Shown here piece after piece: positions 46,784 through 53,634 of a stretch of DNA of 59,234 nt. Where the stretch lies: assembly GCA_021792795.1 (NCBI GenBank), contig JAJYUB010000022.1:1-59234 (forward strand), read 5' to 3'. The stretch's first letter is position 1; each line of letters begins with the position of its first letter. The notes under the pieces are model-generated. The model saw nothing but the letters and a program-made list of their open reading frames with translations, did no database searches and was not told the DNA's origin. The DNA comes from Acidobacteriota bacterium (GTDB lineage Bacteria; Acidobacteriota; Terriglobia; Terriglobales; Acidobacteriaceae). The translations under genes and the position numbers were made by a program.

Positions 46784-46936
46784 GACTGAGACCTGCGGAT
46801 TTTGAATGCCAGATGCCGTGCGCCGGATGCGGTGCGTGCTAAGCCGCCCATCTTGAACATCGGATAATTCGTGAGCGAAAGGTCCCGGTTCTTTTCCTGG
46901 AACTGTTGCATTCGATTTATCGTAACTTGCACCAGG

Positions 46937-48253
46937 ATGGAACGACTCTACAGTTGGCCATGGGTGGAAGCGCAGGTGGCGCGAACCACGGAAGTGTGGA
47001 ACGCGGGCGCTGGGCGGTCGGCGCTGGGCGGCGTGCAGTACAGCGTGCAGGAGCAGCGGCGACGGGAAAAGGCCTACGACGAAGCGTTACGGGCCGTCGA
47101 GCGGGAGCTGAAACGAACTCCTCGAAGCGATGCGGAGCGGCTGCAAACACAGGCGCGAATCACGGCTGCGTTCGCGCGATTTTCCGCGACGGCGCTGGGG
47201 CTGGAGCCGGACGCGATCAACCTGCTGACCAACGTTTTTTTGCCCGTCGGTACGAAACTTGCCAGGTGGGCGAGGCGGTTCGATCCCAGCCTAAGCATGC
47301 CGGACATTGTGCAGGCGTGCCGCAATGCATGGACTGCCTGCGGATTGCAGCCGCTGCTTGGCGAGTCCGTCGGGCTGACCTCGTCGATCCTCGGCTATAG
47401 CCTGTTGTATCCGTATAGCGATAACTATCTGGACAGAGGGGACGTTTCCGGCGAGGCGAAACTGCGGTTCAGCGAGCGCTTTCGTGGCCGGCTGCGGGGC
47501 GATGCTGTTTTTGCCGGGGACGATCGCGAGGCTGCGATATGGAACCTGGTGGGCTTGATTGAAGAGCAATATCCGCGTGGAGATTATCCGGAGGTCTTCG
47601 ACTGCCTGCTGGCCATTCATCGGGCGCAGGAGCAGAGCATCGCACAGATGGAAAATTCGGACAAATTCGACGACGCGCAGGTGTTGGCGATGAGTTGCGC
47701 CAAGGGTGGCAGCTCCGTGATGGCAGATGCTTGCCTGTCCCATGGATGGCTGAACCCGCAGGAAAGTAGATTTTCTTTCGAGTGGGGCGTGCTGCTGCAG
47801 TTGGGGGACGATTTACAGGATGTGCGCCAGGATCTTGAGCGCGGGTCGGTAACGATGTTCTCGCGCGCGGCGAGCATCGGTAAGCCGCTGGATTCGCTAG
47901 TGCTGCAGTTGATAAGTTTCAGCGAGCGGGTGGGAGCACGCATGGACGACCTGCCCAACGGAACCGCGATGCTGCGGGAACTGCTGCGGATGAGCTGGCG
48001 ATCGCTGATCATTGGGGCCATCGCCGAGTCGCACGCATTCTTTTCGTCAAAGTTTCTGGAGGAAGCGGAACGCTGTTCCCAATTTCGCTACGGATTTCTG
48101 CGGGCGCGGAACAAGAAACTCGCGAGTCGGCAGGGGCTGTATGCGACCCTGTTCGATGCTTTCCTGGAGGCTCCGGAGGACGGGGGAAACAAAAACCCTT
48201 TGCCGGAGTACAGAAAGATCGCGTGGCTAGGGGCTGAAGTGGGCCTCGCTTAA
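46937..48253 (+). CDS. Class I isoprenoid-synthase-like protein
   Basis: A 438-residue helical protein. It carries YSDNYLDRGD (residues 160-169), a first Asp-rich motif like those of all-alpha terpenoid synthases, and LGDDLQDVRQDLERG (289-303), the second one, about 130 residues later. It shares the fold's general layout, but the sequence is unlike standard farnesyl or geranylgeranyl synthases, and I do not know its product. It most resembles the poorly studied 'class 1 isoprenoid biosynthesis enzyme' group. The start is uncertain: ATG at 46937 or GTG at 46871. Neighbours give no pathway clue. Confidence 0.6.
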   Translation: MERLYSWPWVEAQVARTTEVWNAGAGRSALGGVQYSVQEQRRREKAYDEALRAVERELKRTPRSDAERLQTQARITAAFARFSATALGLEPDAINLLTNVFLPVGTKLARWARRFDPSLSMPDIVQACRNAWTACGLQPLLGESVGLTSSILGYSLLYPYSDNYLDRGDVSGEAKLRFSERFRGRLRGDAVFAGDDREAAIWNLVGLIEEQYPRGDYPEVFDCLLAIHRAQEQSIAQMENSDKFDDAQVLAMSCAKGGSSVMADACLSHGWLNPQESRFSFEWGVLLQLGDDLQDVRQDLERGSVTMFSRAASIGKPLDSLVLQLISFSERVGARMDDLPNGTAMLRELLRMSWRSLIIGAIAESHAFFSSKFLEEAERCSQFRYGFLRARNKKLASRQGLYATLFDAFLEAPEDGGNKNPLPEYRKIAWLGAEVGLA

Positions 48254-48570: not shown

Positions 48571-49278
48571 ATGACAGACCTTACGCGCCGCAATTTTTTC
48601 GGCGCAGCCGCCGCTGCCGCCACCGGTTTTGCGGCACTCACCGCAGCATCCTCTCCGCTGCATGCGCAACTTGTCGACAAGACCGACGACTGGAAGCTCG
48701 CGGAGTTTCGTCATCTTCTGCAGTCGAAAGCGCGCGCTCGGCAGGTCTACGATGTCACCTCCATCGGCGGCGGGAAATTTTTGAACAACATCAAGAACTC
48801 ATTGAATGGATTTCATTTTGGCTTCGGATATCCCATGGAGCAGATCCAGGTGCTGGCCGCGCTTCACGGACCCGCAAATCTGTTGAACTTCGATGATTAT
48901 GTCTGGGAGAAATACCGTGTCGGCGAGTGGCTCAAGGTGGACGATCCCAGGACTGGAAAGCCCGCGATGCGCAACTTTTTTTATTCCCGCCAGATGCCGC
49001 ACTTCGCCTCGCAGGACCCGCAGAGCGAAGAGTCGATGTTTCAGAACACCAGTATTGAAGTGCTGCAGTCTCGCGGCGTGCGCTTCCTGAGTTGTCACAC
49101 GGCCAGCGAAGAACAATCCAAGATTGTGATTCAGCGTCTGGGTCTTTCGCAAACGCGGGATGAGGTGGTGAAGGACTGGCAGGCGCACACCCTTCCTGGC
49201 GTGCTGGTGGTTGCTTCCATGGTGGCCGCCATCGCGGTGTTGCAATGCGAAGGCCACTACTCCTACATCACGGTCTGA
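48571..49278 (+). CDS. TAT-exported DsrE-like protein
   Basis: A 235-residue protein starting at the ATG at 48571 behind GGGAGG. Its N-terminus TRRNFFGAAAAAATGFAALTA is a twin-arginine signal. The mature part fits the DsrE/DsrF-like fold: NNIKNSLNGFHFGFGYP, IQVLAALHGPANLLNFDDY, LQSRGVRFLSCHTAS with a candidate sulfur-carrying Cys, and LPGVLVVASMVAAIAVLQCEGHYSYI. DsrE-type proteins handle protein-bound sulfur, usually in the cytosol, so an exported one is notable. It is the first gene of a three-gene unit with a binding-protein-like protein and TsdA-like cytochrome. Confidence 0.72.
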   Translation: MTDLTRRNFFGAAAAAATGFAALTAASSPLHAQLVDKTDDWKLAEFRHLLQSKARARQVYDVTSIGGGKFLNNIKNSLNGFHFGFGYPMEQIQVLAALHGPANLLNFDDYVWEKYRVGEWLKVDDPRTGKPAMRNFFYSRQMPHFASQDPQSEESMFQNTSIEVLQSRGVRFLSCHTASEEQSKIVIQRLGLSQTRDEVVKDWQAHTLPGVLVVASMVAAIAVLQCEGHYSYITV

Positions 49279-49296
49279 AGGAAAGTGAAAGGCGCA

Positions 49297-50256
49297 ATGA
49301 TGCGGAAGAAAATTTCGACGATATTGCTGGGCCTGATGGTCGCGTTTTCTATGGTGGCTGCAGCGCTGGCGCAGGCCGCTCCTCCATGGAGCGCAGGCCA
49401 CAACGACCCGGCAAGCGCCAAGGGGTATGTCTTTCCAGTGGACTCGATCGACAATGTGCCCGATCTGCATGGCAATCCCGCCGATGCCAGGCTGGTCCTG
49501 TTCATCGGCGGCAACCAGTTTTTTGTGCTGCCACGGCTTATCGCCGGATTTGAAGCAGAACACCCAGAACTGCGCGGACACATTTTTTACGAGACGCTGC
49601 CGCCTGGGATTTTGCGCCGTCAGATGGCCAACGAAAATACCTTGACCCTGGGCAACCTGACCCTGCAGGTGACGCCGGATGTGTATGAGGCCGGGGCCCG
49701 CGTGGTGGATGCAATGGCGCGGCAGGGACAGGTCGAGCAATCCGTCCGCTACGCCACTAACGATCTGGCCATCATGGTGGCTGCCGGAAATCCGAAACAC
49801 ATTGCCGGGCTCAAAGACCTGGGCCAACCCAGCCTGCGGCTCTCCATGCCCAACCCCGCGTGGGAAGGCGTGTCGCGACAGATTGCAGCCGCATTGCGCA
49901 AAGCGGGCGGCGAGGCACTCTATCAGTCGGTTTATGTCAGCAAGGTCGCCGATGGGAAGACGTACCTGACGCACATCCATCATCGTCAGACGCCGATGCG
50001 GATCATGCAGGAAGAGTCCGATGCCGGCGTGACCTGGGCCTCCGAAGTGCGCTTTCAGGAGATGATCCATAATCCAATCGCCGGGGTTGCCATTCCGGCA
50101 GCGCAAAACAGCACTGCTATCTACGCTGCGGGAGTATTGAAAACTGCGCCGCACGCAGCCGCCGCGCGCGCATGGGTACAGTACCTCACCTCACCACAAG
50201 CGCAGAGAATGTATCACGACTATGGCTTTCAATCGATTACGGGAAGAGCAAAATGA
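49297..50256 (+). CDS. ModA-like periplasmic substrate-binding protein
   Basis: A 319-residue protein with a signal peptide (MMRKKISTILLGLMVAFSMVAAALAQA) and a type II periplasmic-binding-protein fold: LVLFIGGNQFFVLPRLIAGFEAEHPELR, NDLAIMVAAGNPKHIAGLKDLG, LSMPNPAWEGVS and GVTWASEVRFQ, typical of molybdate/sulfate-type binders. No ABC permease or ATPase accompanies it. The start is taken at the ATG at 49297; a GTG at 49285 is possible. It ends in an ATGA overlap with the cytochrome. It might deliver a sulfur anion to the cytochrome rather than feed a transporter. Confidence 0.72.
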   Translation: MMRKKISTILLGLMVAFSMVAAALAQAAPPWSAGHNDPASAKGYVFPVDSIDNVPDLHGNPADARLVLFIGGNQFFVLPRLIAGFEAEHPELRGHIFYETLPPGILRRQMANENTLTLGNLTLQVTPDVYEAGARVVDAMARQGQVEQSVRYATNDLAIMVAAGNPKHIAGLKDLGQPSLRLSMPNPAWEGVSRQIAAALRKAGGEALYQSVYVSKVADGKTYLTHIHHRQTPMRIMQEESDAGVTWASEVRFQEMIHNPIAGVAIPAAQNSTAIYAAGVLKTAPHAAAARAWVQYLTSPQAQRMYHDYGFQSITGRAK

Positions 50257-51056
50257 AGCTTCGCGTCGCACTGCTGCTGACGACTTTCGCACTGGGTGTC
50301 GCCCTGACTGGGAATGCCGGAAACACGGTGCCGGGAACCATCCAGCAACCGTCGGCTACAGTGCCCATCGCTTCGCAGCCGCCTGATCTTGCAAGTGTTC
50401 CGGCGGGAAAACAAGGCGACCTGATCCGCCAGGGCAGGGACATTTTTGACCAGACACCGACGCACGCCAAGGCTTATGTCGGCAACCGACTGAGCTGCAA
50501 CGATTGCCACCTCCAGGGAGGCACGGAGCCCAAAGCAGCGCCGTTGACCGGCGTTCCGGGATTGTTTCCCCTGTATAGCCAGCGAGCTGGGCGCGTGATC
50601 AGTTTTGGCGAGCGAGTGCAGGAGTGTTTCGTCCGCAGCGAAAACGGGACCCCTCCACCGCTGGACAGTCCAGAGATGAACGCATTGCTTGCCTATATCG
50701 AATGGATCTCTCATGGCGTTTCCAAACAGGAGGCGCTCGCCGGACGGGGTCTGGTGCAAATACCCTCGCTCACCGGCAATGCGGATCGCGGGGCGGTCAT
50801 CTACCAACAGCGGTGTGCGGCCTGTCATCAAGACAATGGCGCGGGAGTGCCGGCTGTGTTCCCGGCGCTGTGGGGCCCGGACTCCTACAACGACGGAGCT
50901 GGCATGAACAAGGTCCCCAAGATGGCGGCGTTCCTTGTCAAGGCGATGCCGCCGACCCAGCCCGGCACGCTGTCGCCGCAGGATGCGTATGACGTGGCCG
51001 CATACATCCACGGCAAGCCGCGCGCAAAATTCAATGCCGCCTACAGCAAATACTGA
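50253..51056 (+). CDS. tsdA: Dihaem cytochrome c of thiosulfate dehydrogenase (TsdA) type
   Basis: A 267-residue protein with a signal peptide (MKLRVALLLTTFALGVALTG) and two CXXCH sites (C82NDCH, C188AACH). The region SCNDCHLQGGTEPKAAPLTGVPGLFPLYSQRAGR followed by ERVQECFVRSENG matches TsdA, where a Cys (here Cys125) ligates the first haem. A Met in KAMPPTQPG (about 232) is a candidate second-haem ligand. TsdA oxidises thiosulfate to tetrathionate, or the reverse, in the periplasm. Its start overlaps the preceding stop codon, so the three genes are coupled. Direction and electron partner are unknown. Confidence 0.78.
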   Translation: MKLRVALLLTTFALGVALTGNAGNTVPGTIQQPSATVPIASQPPDLASVPAGKQGDLIRQGRDIFDQTPTHAKAYVGNRLSCNDCHLQGGTEPKAAPLTGVPGLFPLYSQRAGRVISFGERVQECFVRSENGTPPPLDSPEMNALLAYIEWISHGVSKQEALAGRGLVQIPSLTGNADRGAVIYQQRCAACHQDNGAGVPAVFPALWGPDSYNDGAGMNKVPKMAAFLVKAMPPTQPGTLSPQDAYDVAAYIHGKPRAKFNAAYSKY

Positions 51057-51205
51057 CGGGCATTGACGAAAACAAGTGGCGGAATGGGTGGGTGCCATTC
51101 CGGATTCTTCCACTCCGTCTCTGGAAGCGTTCAACTGTAAAAAAGCGCATCTCGCCTTGCTAAGTCCTACTCATTTCTCAAATTGTTCCCGTATCGTTGT
51201 GGTCT

Positions 51206-52096
51206 CTATTCCGCAACGCGGGTCCAGTGGCCGGGGGCGACTTCGACCAGCGGGCCTTCCGGCATGATGCCGATTGCCTCCGCCGCGGCCAGGGGGGCGT
51301 TGCGATTGCTGTGCATGGTGGGGACGGCGGCCAGCAAACTGCGCGTATACGGGTGCTGTGGACTGGCGAATAACTGCGCGCAGGGGGCAATTTCTACGAT
51401 CTTTCCTTTACGCATGACGGCAACCCGCTGGGCGATTTGAGCGACGACAGAAAGATCGTGCGAGATAAAAAGCAGCGCCGCATTGGAGCGCTCTTTCATC
51501 TCGCGCAACAGATCGAGAATCTGCGCCTGCACGGTTACGTCGAGCGCCGTGGTTGGCTCGTCGGCGATGATAAGGCTGGGACGATTGACGAGGGCCATCG
51601 CGATCAGGATGCGTTGCCGCTGACCGCCGGAAAACTGGTGGGGATAGTCGTCGAATCGCAGATGGGGCTCCGGAATGGAAACCGACTCCAGGGCTTCGAT
51701 GGCATGCTTGCGCACGGTCGCTCGCGAAAGATCGCGCTGGTGGACGCGAATGGCCTCGGCGATTTGTTTGCCGATCGACATGACCGGATTCAGGGCCGTC
51801 ATCGGCTCCTGAAACACCATGGCGGCATCGCGGCCGCGGCGCGCGACCATCTCGTGTTCCGCAAGCCGCATCCAATCCTGCTCGCGAAACCAGATGCTGC
51901 CGGCGCCCCGGGCGCGAGGATCGAGCAGACGCAAAATCGCCAGCGCAGTGACGGATTTTCCGGAGCCAGACTCGCCCACCAGCGCCAGGGATTCACCTGG
52001 GTCGATGGAAAAACTCAAATCATCGACGGCCGTGTGTTGGCCTGCATCGGAGGCAAATGTGATCGAGAGATGTTCCACGCGGAGAAGGGGCTGCAC
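51206..52096 (-). CDS. Oligopeptide/dipeptide ABC-transporter ATPase, DppD/OppD type
   Basis: A 296-residue ATPase. Walker A is GESGSGKS (residues about 41-48), the signature motif is FSGGQRQR, Walker B is LIIADEPTTALD and the switch His is in FISHDLSVVAQ. The C-terminal peptide-type extension PQHPYTRSLLAAVP marks the DppD/OppD subfamily. No permease, binding-protein or second ATPase gene lies beside it, so in this window it is orphaned; those may lie elsewhere. Confidence 0.9.
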   Translation of the reverse strand: MQPLLRVEHLSITFASDAGQHTAVDDLSFSIDPGESLALVGESGSGKSVTALAILRLLDPRARGAGSIWFREQDWMRLAEHEMVARRGRDAAMVFQEPMTALNPVMSIGKQIAEAIRVHQRDLSRATVRKHAIEALESVSIPEPHLRFDDYPHQFSGGQRQRILIAMALVNRPSLIIADEPTTALDVTVQAQILDLLREMKERSNAALLFISHDLSVVAQIAQRVAVMRKGKIVEIAPCAQLFASPQHPYTRSLLAAVPTMHSNRNAPLAAAEAIGIMPEGPLVEVAPGHWTRVAE

Positions 52097-52923: not shown

Positions 52924-53634
52924 TCAGGAGGCATGCGAGAGGGACGAAGCCAAGGAAGTTTTCGATACGGTATTCCCATCGGGCGACGAGGCGGCGGCAG
53001 TTCTGATCCAGGCAAAGATGCGTTCAGTCTTCCATCTGCGCCGGTGCAACCGCGTAGCAGGTGGCCATCCTGTGCCATCTGCTACGCGGTTGCACCGGTT
53101 GGGCGAGGCCCTCTCGACGCCGTAGTCGGTGGCGAGTTTTTCATCGAGCGGGTCTGAGTCGCAGGCCTTGTCGCCGATCAGTCTTGCGGGCAGCTCGTCT
53201 AGCAAGCATCCGGCCAGAACATCTTCCACAAGCTTGCACTCGGCAGGCGAAGCGCTTGCGATAGATACGGCGAGAGGAAGACCGTCGCCAGAGGCGATAG
53301 CGACGATCTTTGTACCCTTGCCGCGCTTGGTCGGGCCGATCGCGAAGCCCCCTTTTTGGCGCTCGCGAAGGTCGCATCCACGAACGCTTCGTCCAAAGGC
53401 AGCTTGCCCTCGCGGACCCACTGCTGGAGCCGGCGATGGCAGGTTTGATACGGCGGACATTTCGAAGGCCATCTCGATCCACTGCGCTCCGCTGCCAAGA
53501 ATCCACGGCACGCCGTTCAGTACCGCTCGTGTGTTGTGCCACGGACGGCTGCGGTTGTCCTCGCGTCGGCGAGGGCGCAACACTGGCTCTGCCAACTCCC
53601 ACTGTTCCTCTGTCAGTTCCCAGCGGCCGGTCAT
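52924..53634 (-). pseudogene. IS5-family transposase, frameshifted
   Basis: Starts MTGRWELTEEQWELAEPVL, the usual IS5-family opening, and continues to WILGSGAQWIEMA. The frame then shifts near 53465 to one reading CPPYQTCHRRLQQWVREGK and DEAFVDATFASAKKGAS, and shifts back to IGPTKRGKGTKIVAIAS and DEKLATDYGVE. The end carries RRRWKTERIFAWIRT, the conserved Y-(2)-R-(3)-E region. Two frame changes and a deletion (missing about 15 residues after QQWVREG) mean no active transposase. Confidence 0.8.
53041..53098. repeat. Long inverted repeat inside the IS5 transposase remnant
   Basis: Perfect 20-base arms CCGGTGCAACCGCGTAGCAG (53041-53060) and its complement (53079-53098) flank an 18-base centre. 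The centre also pairs (GTGGC/GCCAT, one wobble), leaving an 8-base loop. It lies over the NRCNRVADG...RLHRRRWK coding segment. Such a structure is unexpected in transposase coding DNA. Confidence 0.7.

Follow-up and report, generated by a model that had tools for sequence, protein, structure and literature searches.

What could an exported DsrE-fold protein, a solute-binding protein and a dihaem cytochrome c be doing together in an acidobacterium? The question is raised by three closely packed plus-strand genes for predicted exported proteins (genes 1 to 3, the trio; 48571-51056, Table 1) in a window of 59,234 nucleotides, which is the whole stretch of DNA analysed here and is contig 89 (JAJYUB010000022.1) of a 4.04 Mb Acidobacteriota genome in 133 contigs (GCA_021792795.1; labelled G000 among the genomes compared). 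From sequence comparisons and structural models, we consider it probable that the trio is a periplasmic thiosulfate-oxidising unit in which a binding protein (the binder), a DsrE-fold protein and a TsdA-type cytochrome act together. An earlier, sequence-only reading of the window had proposed such a packed set, with its last two genes overlapping by ATGA, and the gene calls agree, leaving a gap of 18-21 nucleotides between genes 1 and 2.

The three encoded proteins

A TsdA-like dihaem cytochrome had been proposed for gene 3, and the protein indeed matches PF21342 (SoxA-TsdA_cyt-c; 45.6 bits, cut-off 27), PF00034 (Cytochrom_C; 52.1 bits, cut-off 21.3) and the TsdA structure 4wqd (E 3.7e-46). 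Its CXXCH motifs lie at residues 82-86 and 188-192, and alignment assigns Cys125 as the haem-1 ligand, Arg111, Arg121 and Ser129 as substrate residues and Met232 as the haem-2 ligand; all of these, including both CXXCH motifs, are invariant in 15 of the 15 aligned relatives. TsdA catalysis has been tied to Arg109, Arg119, Cys123 and Ser127 (PMC4423706), the spacing of which is identical to that of Arg111, Arg121, Cys125 and Ser129 in gene 3, and the haem-2 methionine of TsdA is strictly conserved (PMC5146829). Gene 3 thus shares with the TsdA proteins of Allochromatium vinosum and Campylobacter jejuni both haem motifs, the cysteine ligand, the Arg/Arg/Ser set and the haem-2 methionine; unlike theirs, its gene is grouped with those for a binder and an exported DsrE-fold protein, and Ala replaces Lys208/Asn254. 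No second copy of gene 3 was found in the window's genome at E<=1e-3.

For gene 1, export and a DsrE fold had been claimed; the first agrees with a twin-arginine motif read by eye near the N terminus (LTRRNFFGAA) and the second with the predicted structure, though Pfam is silent (0 families at E<=1 for the window's protein; PF02635 (DsrE) among the Pfam matches of 0 of the 19 aligned family members). Because sequence searches against solved structures, with the single sequence or a profile, gave nothing usable, the fold is a prediction from the model (AlphaFold2, 19 sequences, mean predicted local distance difference test score (pLDDT) 78.5). The model matched 2pd2 with a Z score of 13.3 (root-mean-square deviation 1.4, 107 of 108 residues), followed by 1l1s (12.1), YchN (10.1) and three entries titled DsrE or DsrE/DsrF-like (3pnx, 3mc3 and 2qs7; 8.7-8.8), with the top eight structural matches at 8.7-13.3 and the next at 4.7. 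A profile of short exported DsrE proteins from related loci (five proteins, of which four were scanned and all four were PF02635-positive) matches 1l1s, 2pd2, 8uja (named DsrE-like) and 3mc3 by sequence, and the top structural matches of gene 1 are therefore of the DsrE family. Plain Foldseek on the same model was weak (best E 1.7e-3); the TIM-barrel matches in its tail were rejected as chance, the second aligner having separated the DsrE entries clearly.

In the modelled DsrE fold the active position is taken by a cysteine, Cys175, which is shared by 42 of the 42 relatives in an alignment that omits some distant ones (such as L073, L107 and L117-L119, where L numbers denote loci) as well as L063 and L069; His176 is present in 30 rows and His206 in 33. 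Cys175 also aligns with the cysteine of the PF02635-positive short DsrE proteins, to which gene 1 is weakly matched in profile-profile comparison (62%, E 7.5e-5; 41% for the proteobacterial type). Gene 1 resembles the DsrE/DsrF-like carriers (PF02635; 3pnx, 3mc3, 2qs7 and DsrE3A) in fold and cysteine position, and differs from them in its predicted export, greater length, Cys-His pair, second well-conserved histidine and lack of a Pfam DsrE match.

By sequence, gene 1 is a diverged relative of the Acidithiobacillus-type haem-free thiosulfate dehydrogenase (TSD). Its score against the NCBIfam model NF052225 ('thiosulfate dehydrogenase'; 95 bits, E 4.6e-27, residues 34-229) is below the cut-off of 300 bits, and we therefore do not call it a member of that family, which, to judge by its name, would model the AFE_0042 protein of Acidithiobacillus ferrooxidans. 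Proteobacterial relatives of gene 1 pass this cut-off (L058, L060, L062 and L066; 371-418 bits), and alignment of the gene 1 family with six proteobacterial rows (four of them scored against NF052225, all four passing) gave 99.6% hhalign probability (E 2.4e-24, 185 columns); the homology spans the mature protein, and the Cys-His motif is in all six rows. The window's genome encodes a Tat-DsrE paralogue (Tat, twin-arginine translocation) on contig 86 (46482-47201; L002) with 42% identity to gene 1 and the Cys-His motif kept, which scores 72.9 bits against NF052225. The closest loci in named records belong to metagenome-assembled Acidobacteria (91-94% identity in gene 1). Two further loci, L052:2556-3268 and L053:724-1394, have a gene 1 relative matched in two frames, which may be broken or reflect a sequencing error.

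Gene 2, with a Sec-type leader judged by eye, had been described as a binder without a transporter partner, and this holds in the DNA examined. It matches SBP_bac_11 (Pfam, 152 bits), and its model, of mediocre quality (pLDDT 72.6), has the fold of the sulfate/molybdate binders SubI, Sbp and ModA (Z about 15-19) while standing about equally close to ModA, sulfate-binding SubI, PEB3 and AcfC; its scores fall below the ModA (TIGR01256, 34.8 of 62.5 bits) and CysP (NF008106, 25.6 of 308 bits) cut-offs. Unlike SubI, Sbp and ModA, it has no sulfate/molybdate-type permease or ATPase beside it among the eight open reading frames (ORFs) scanned in the window and the three scanned in L043 (the search was confined to these ORFs); the sole transporter part near the set is an oligopeptide-type ATP-binding cassette (ABC) ATPase on the opposite strand (51206-52096). 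A second copy of gene 2 was not found in the window's genome at E<=1e-3. It is also unlike those binders in its constant neighbour, as the type lies behind a DsrE-fold gene wherever upstream DNA is present in the genomes and regions examined.

Gene neighbourhoods in other genomes

The sequence-only reading would have been refuted, among other ways, by a trio not found together elsewhere, and neighbourhood counts located it in other genomes; that the genes recur together makes the trio more than a chance grouping. Among 120 Acidobacteriota genomes (the window's own included; counts by coordinates), gene 1 was matched in 28 and the binder, at more than 300 bits, in 26. A DsrE-fold gene lies directly upstream of the binder in 24 of these 26, the other two binders (G080 and G103) standing at the start of a contig; the upstream gene is of the Tat type of gene 1 in 22 and a shorter exported DsrE in two (G030 and G047). 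The cytochrome adjoins the binder in 21 of the 26, and lies elsewhere in the genome in three; in the other two (G079 and G083) the set ends at a contig edge. Seen from the cytochrome, 25 of the 34 places with a TsdA-like protein above 100 bits neighbour a binder or a DsrE-fold gene. In a second sample of 396 genomes spread evenly over the phylum, again with the window's own, gene 1 or a distant relative occurred in 20 at E<=1e-5 and the binder in seven at E<=1e-40; because all seven have the contiguous trio, it is in Acidobacteriota a rare but consistent unit. The 22 loci opened from relatives include 17 with the binder, of which 14 have the cytochrome, two (L037 and L038) do not and one (L050) is cut; L052-L055 are split, cut or without partners.

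In many of these relatives the set is joined by a gene for a fused CcoN-CcoO-cytochrome c oxidase of about 865-957 codons (domains tested in three copies). In 11 of the 22 loci this gene immediately precedes gene 1, and a twelfth (L050) has a fragment of it. At E<=1e-100 it was found in eight of the 120 genomes: in seven as a full-length gene, each time immediately before gene 1, and in G097 as a partial match near a TsdA-like and a gene-1-like gene. Oxidase genes also occur in seven of the 14 plasmid regions described below (L064-L068, L121 and L124; the other seven have none). With an oxidase beside the trio in so many relatives, thiosulfate oxidation with oxygen is favoured, without proof for the window. 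In the window's family, G048 matches an Acidipila rosea protein at 100% over 865 residues, for which reason A. rosea is taken as a family member. At its end, the fused oxidase gene of L043 shares ATGA with a small ORF that has a hydrophobic start.

Kindred sets occur in three phyla, those of Bacteroidota in a different order and others on proteobacterial plasmids. Plasmid records held a relative of gene 1 in 24 cases and the binder (at least 46% identity) in 22; the binder adjoins the gene 1 relative in 15 of the 24, and two more have a second binder place. We opened the regions of 14 of the 22 binder records, and in all 14 each copy of the binder directly follows a DsrE-fold gene, of the long Tat type in Bradyrhizobium, Paraburkholderia, Bosea, Burkholderia, Methylobacterium, Gluconobacter, Kozakia and Acetobacter, and of the short type in Komagataeibacter, Acetobacter, Paraburkholderia, Hymenobacter and Spirosoma. 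Twelve of the 14 encode a TsdA-type cytochrome, and three (L062, L068 and L125) encode DoxD (DoxD plus DoxA domains were tested for L062 only). On a tree of 26 binders and two outgroup rows, the short-DsrE label needs three changes, at least two of them by well-supported branches (10 of the 25 inner branches are unresolved); given these changes and the DsrE gene that is always upstream, the binder seems to have retained a DsrE protein as its partner through a swap of DsrE type. Annotation hides the function of gene 1 in the 24 plasmid records, where its relative is a 'transcriptional initiation protein Tat' in 11, a 'hypothetical protein' in seven and without a feature in six. Near the DsrE/binder pair, some plasmid clusters encode a second, shorter binding protein of about 255 amino acids (L059:3974-4738, L065:5907-6677 and L067:5830-6603). 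Second binder matches as weak as 25-29 bits were left out of the binder counts.

Proposed role and alternatives

One part of this arrangement has a published counterpart. In A. ferrooxidans, AFE_0042 (a Tat-signal protein), AFE_0043 (a binding protein) and AFE_0044 (DoxDA) are assigned to a single operon and have similar expression ratios (log2 values of -1.5, -2.2 and -2.3; PMC2754497), and AFE_0042 is reported as a thiosulfate dehydrogenase, the AFE_0042-AFE_0043 pair standing beside doxDA (PMC6335251). The likeness lies in a thiosulfate operon in which the gene for a Tat-signal protein of about 25 kDa immediately precedes that for a periplasmic binding protein, and the difference in the third partner, which is DoxDA rather than TsdA (TsdA homologues are not encoded in Acidithiobacillus, according to PMC6335251), and in the distance of gene 1 from the NF052225 cut-off. 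The view that the arrangement is undescribed therefore does not stand for the pair of Tat protein and binder, and stands, in the literature searched, for the tie to TsdA. In the open-licence literature searched we found neither a DsrE fold for the TSD family, nor TSD or an exported DsrE tied to TsdA or to the fused oxidase, nor two exported DsrE types swapping before one binder; the Tat-TSD/binder pair is thus already known, and these other three points are apparently new.

How might such a unit work? The binding protein would catch thiosulfate or a related oxyanion and cooperate with the exported DsrE-fold protein, the invariant cysteine of which could form a Cys-S-thiosulfonate; the TsdA-type cytochrome would accept electrons at its Cys/His-ligated haem 1 and then at haem 2, from which they would flow through c-type cytochromes to an oxygen-reducing oxidase, and the product would be tetrathionate or a thiosulfonate-loaded carrier. 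This is the simplest way to join two published reactions: TsdA reacts through a Cys-S-thiosulfonate on its haem ligand (PMC4423706), and DsrE3A of Metallosphaera forms a Cys-S-thiosulfonate with tetrathionate and then passes thiosulfate to TusA (PMC4175335). We infer the ligand, the adduct, contact among the three proteins, each hand-over and the direction of the reaction. The trio is one conserved unit, and the common role in periplasmic thiosulfate chemistry that had been suggested for it is likely. Since AFE_0042 is reported as a thiosulfate dehydrogenase (PMC6335251), gene 1 may also be an enzyme itself rather than only a carrier of sulfane sulfur. A DsrE fold with one invariant cysteine would offer concrete, testable chemistry for the haem-free TSD, linkage with TsdA and a cbb3-type oxidase (in some lineages) or with DoxDA (in others) would supply concrete electron acceptors, and the family of the cultured A. 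rosea would gain likely thiosulfate oxidisers.

Several observations weigh against this joint role. The trio is not always complete: in G002, G003 and G005 (same genus), genes 1 and 2 are present and the cytochrome lies elsewhere in the genome; no cytochrome lies near the set in L037 and L038, and in L041 gene 1 stands without both of its partners; a gene 1 relative occurs without any binder match in seven of 24 plasmid records; and no binder or cytochrome gene was found beside the paralogue within the 3.7 kb examined. The sub-threshold score of gene 1 against the curated NF052225 model points the same way. The oxidase is likewise inconstant, as six of the ten loci without the fused gene (L035, L036, L038, L041, L054 and L055) span at least about 3 kb upstream, which makes its absence there real (in the other four the upstream DNA is too short to tell), and it was not found in the window's own genome at E<=1e-100 (seven of the 16 first-look candidates scored), so that the window's electrons must go elsewhere. 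Finally, the haem-2 residues do not settle the direction, many relatives having Asn-Met like the Campylobacter reductase and the window Ala-Met.

In an alternative that we hold to be unlikely, the DsrE-fold TSD and the haem protein TsdA would be two independent thiosulfate dehydrogenases in one operon, each making tetrathionate with no hand-over between them, and the binder would only raise the local substrate. By itself, the TSD of A. ferrooxidans is reported to be an enzyme (PMC6335251), TsdA is active alone with ferricyanide (PMC4423706), TSD-type genes occur without TsdA nearby in L061 and L080, and at nine of the 34 TsdA-like places the cytochrome gene adjoins neither a TSD nor a binder gene (one of the nine is at a contig edge). 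However, TSD-type and TsdA-type genes are adjacent even without a binder in L063, L073, L081, L083, L086 and L114, which suggests a tie between the two.

A more specific version of the joint unit, which we regard as speculative and rather unlikely, casts the exported DsrE-fold protein as a periplasmic thiosulfonate carrier that would stand to TsdA as SoxYZ stands to SoxA, resolving the Cys-S-thiosulfonate on the cytochrome, while the binder would dock either thiosulfate or this carrier. The comparison with SoxAX-SoxYZ, which pairs a Cys-ligated haem enzyme homologous to TsdA with a periplasmic cysteine carrier (PMC4423706), is by analogy only: the trio has no SoxYZ, and SoxB was over its cut-off in 0 of the 120 genomes, with none at E<=1e-20 in G000. 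Were the carrier role true, the combination of TsdA with an exported DsrE and a binder would add another kind of periplasmic thiosulfate pathway to Sox and to TsdA acting by itself; the Acidithiobacillus protein known as a haem-free 'thiosulfate dehydrogenase' would then be either a carrier of this kind or an enzyme that works with cysteine only.

It is improbable that the unit runs in reverse, as a tetrathionate reductase passing electrons to tetrathionate at low oxygen. TsdA is bidirectional, and the tetrathionate-reducing Campylobacter enzyme has Asn-Met at haem 2 (PMC5146829), a pair shared by many relatives of gene 3 in which Asn precedes the residue equivalent to Met232 (where the window and the three relatives closest to it have Ala); yet the oxidase genes beside the set, in Acidobacteriota and on plasmids, and DoxDA in acetic acid bacteria argue for oxidation (DoxD was sought in the window's genome and not found). 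Least probable of all is a role for the DsrE protein and binder in handling persulfide, sulfite, sulfide or an unrelated oxyanion, with the cytochrome as electron outlet only. This idea has on its side the near-equal closeness of the binder to several known types, its scores under the ModA and CysP cut-offs and its pairing with the short DsrE type, but the complete TsdA thiosulfate site of gene 3 and the reported thiosulfate dehydrogenase within the gene 1 family (PMC6335251) oppose it.

Features of the locus

Table 1 Coordinates of the trio, of adjoining elements and of the partner genes in related loci
Feature	Position	Strand	Description
Gene 1	48571..49278	+	Predicted exported DsrE-fold protein, twin-arginine motif; diverged TSD relative; Cys175 in SCHTA; ATG 48571 to TGA 49278, 235 amino acids, GGAGG upstream
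Gene 2	49297..50256	+	Predicted exported sulfate/molybdate-type solute-binding protein, SBP_bac_11; start ATG 49297 or 49300 (GTG 49285 likewise in frame as start); 318 amino acids counted from 49300
Gene 3	50253..51056	+	TsdA-type dihaem cytochrome c, residues assigned by alignment; ATG 50253, 267 amino acids, final position 51056
ATGA overlap	50253..50256	+	Gene 2 stop and gene 3 start
8-pair hairpin	51080..51102	.	24 nucleotides past gene 3
Fused oxidase gene	L043:3208-5805; equivalents in L039, L040, L042, L044-L049, L051		Directly upstream of Tat-DsrE gene
Short exported DsrE	L071:4838-5425, L072:7185-7790, L065:4253-4816, L067:4319-4798		In place of the long Tat type before the same binder; PF02635 in 3/3 tested

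The hairpin past gene 3 has a terminator-like score on the minus strand only, in a scan that found four such sites against 2.7 expected; a promoter scan found one site against 1.1 expected. Upstream of the trio lies a 460-codon ORF (46871-48253, plus strand) that matched nothing in Pfam or NCBIfam at E<=1. The flanks hold pantothenate genes, MnmE, YidC and, near the trio, a transposase of the IS4/5 type (IS, insertion sequence) on the minus strand (52924-53634; PF13340, PF01609).

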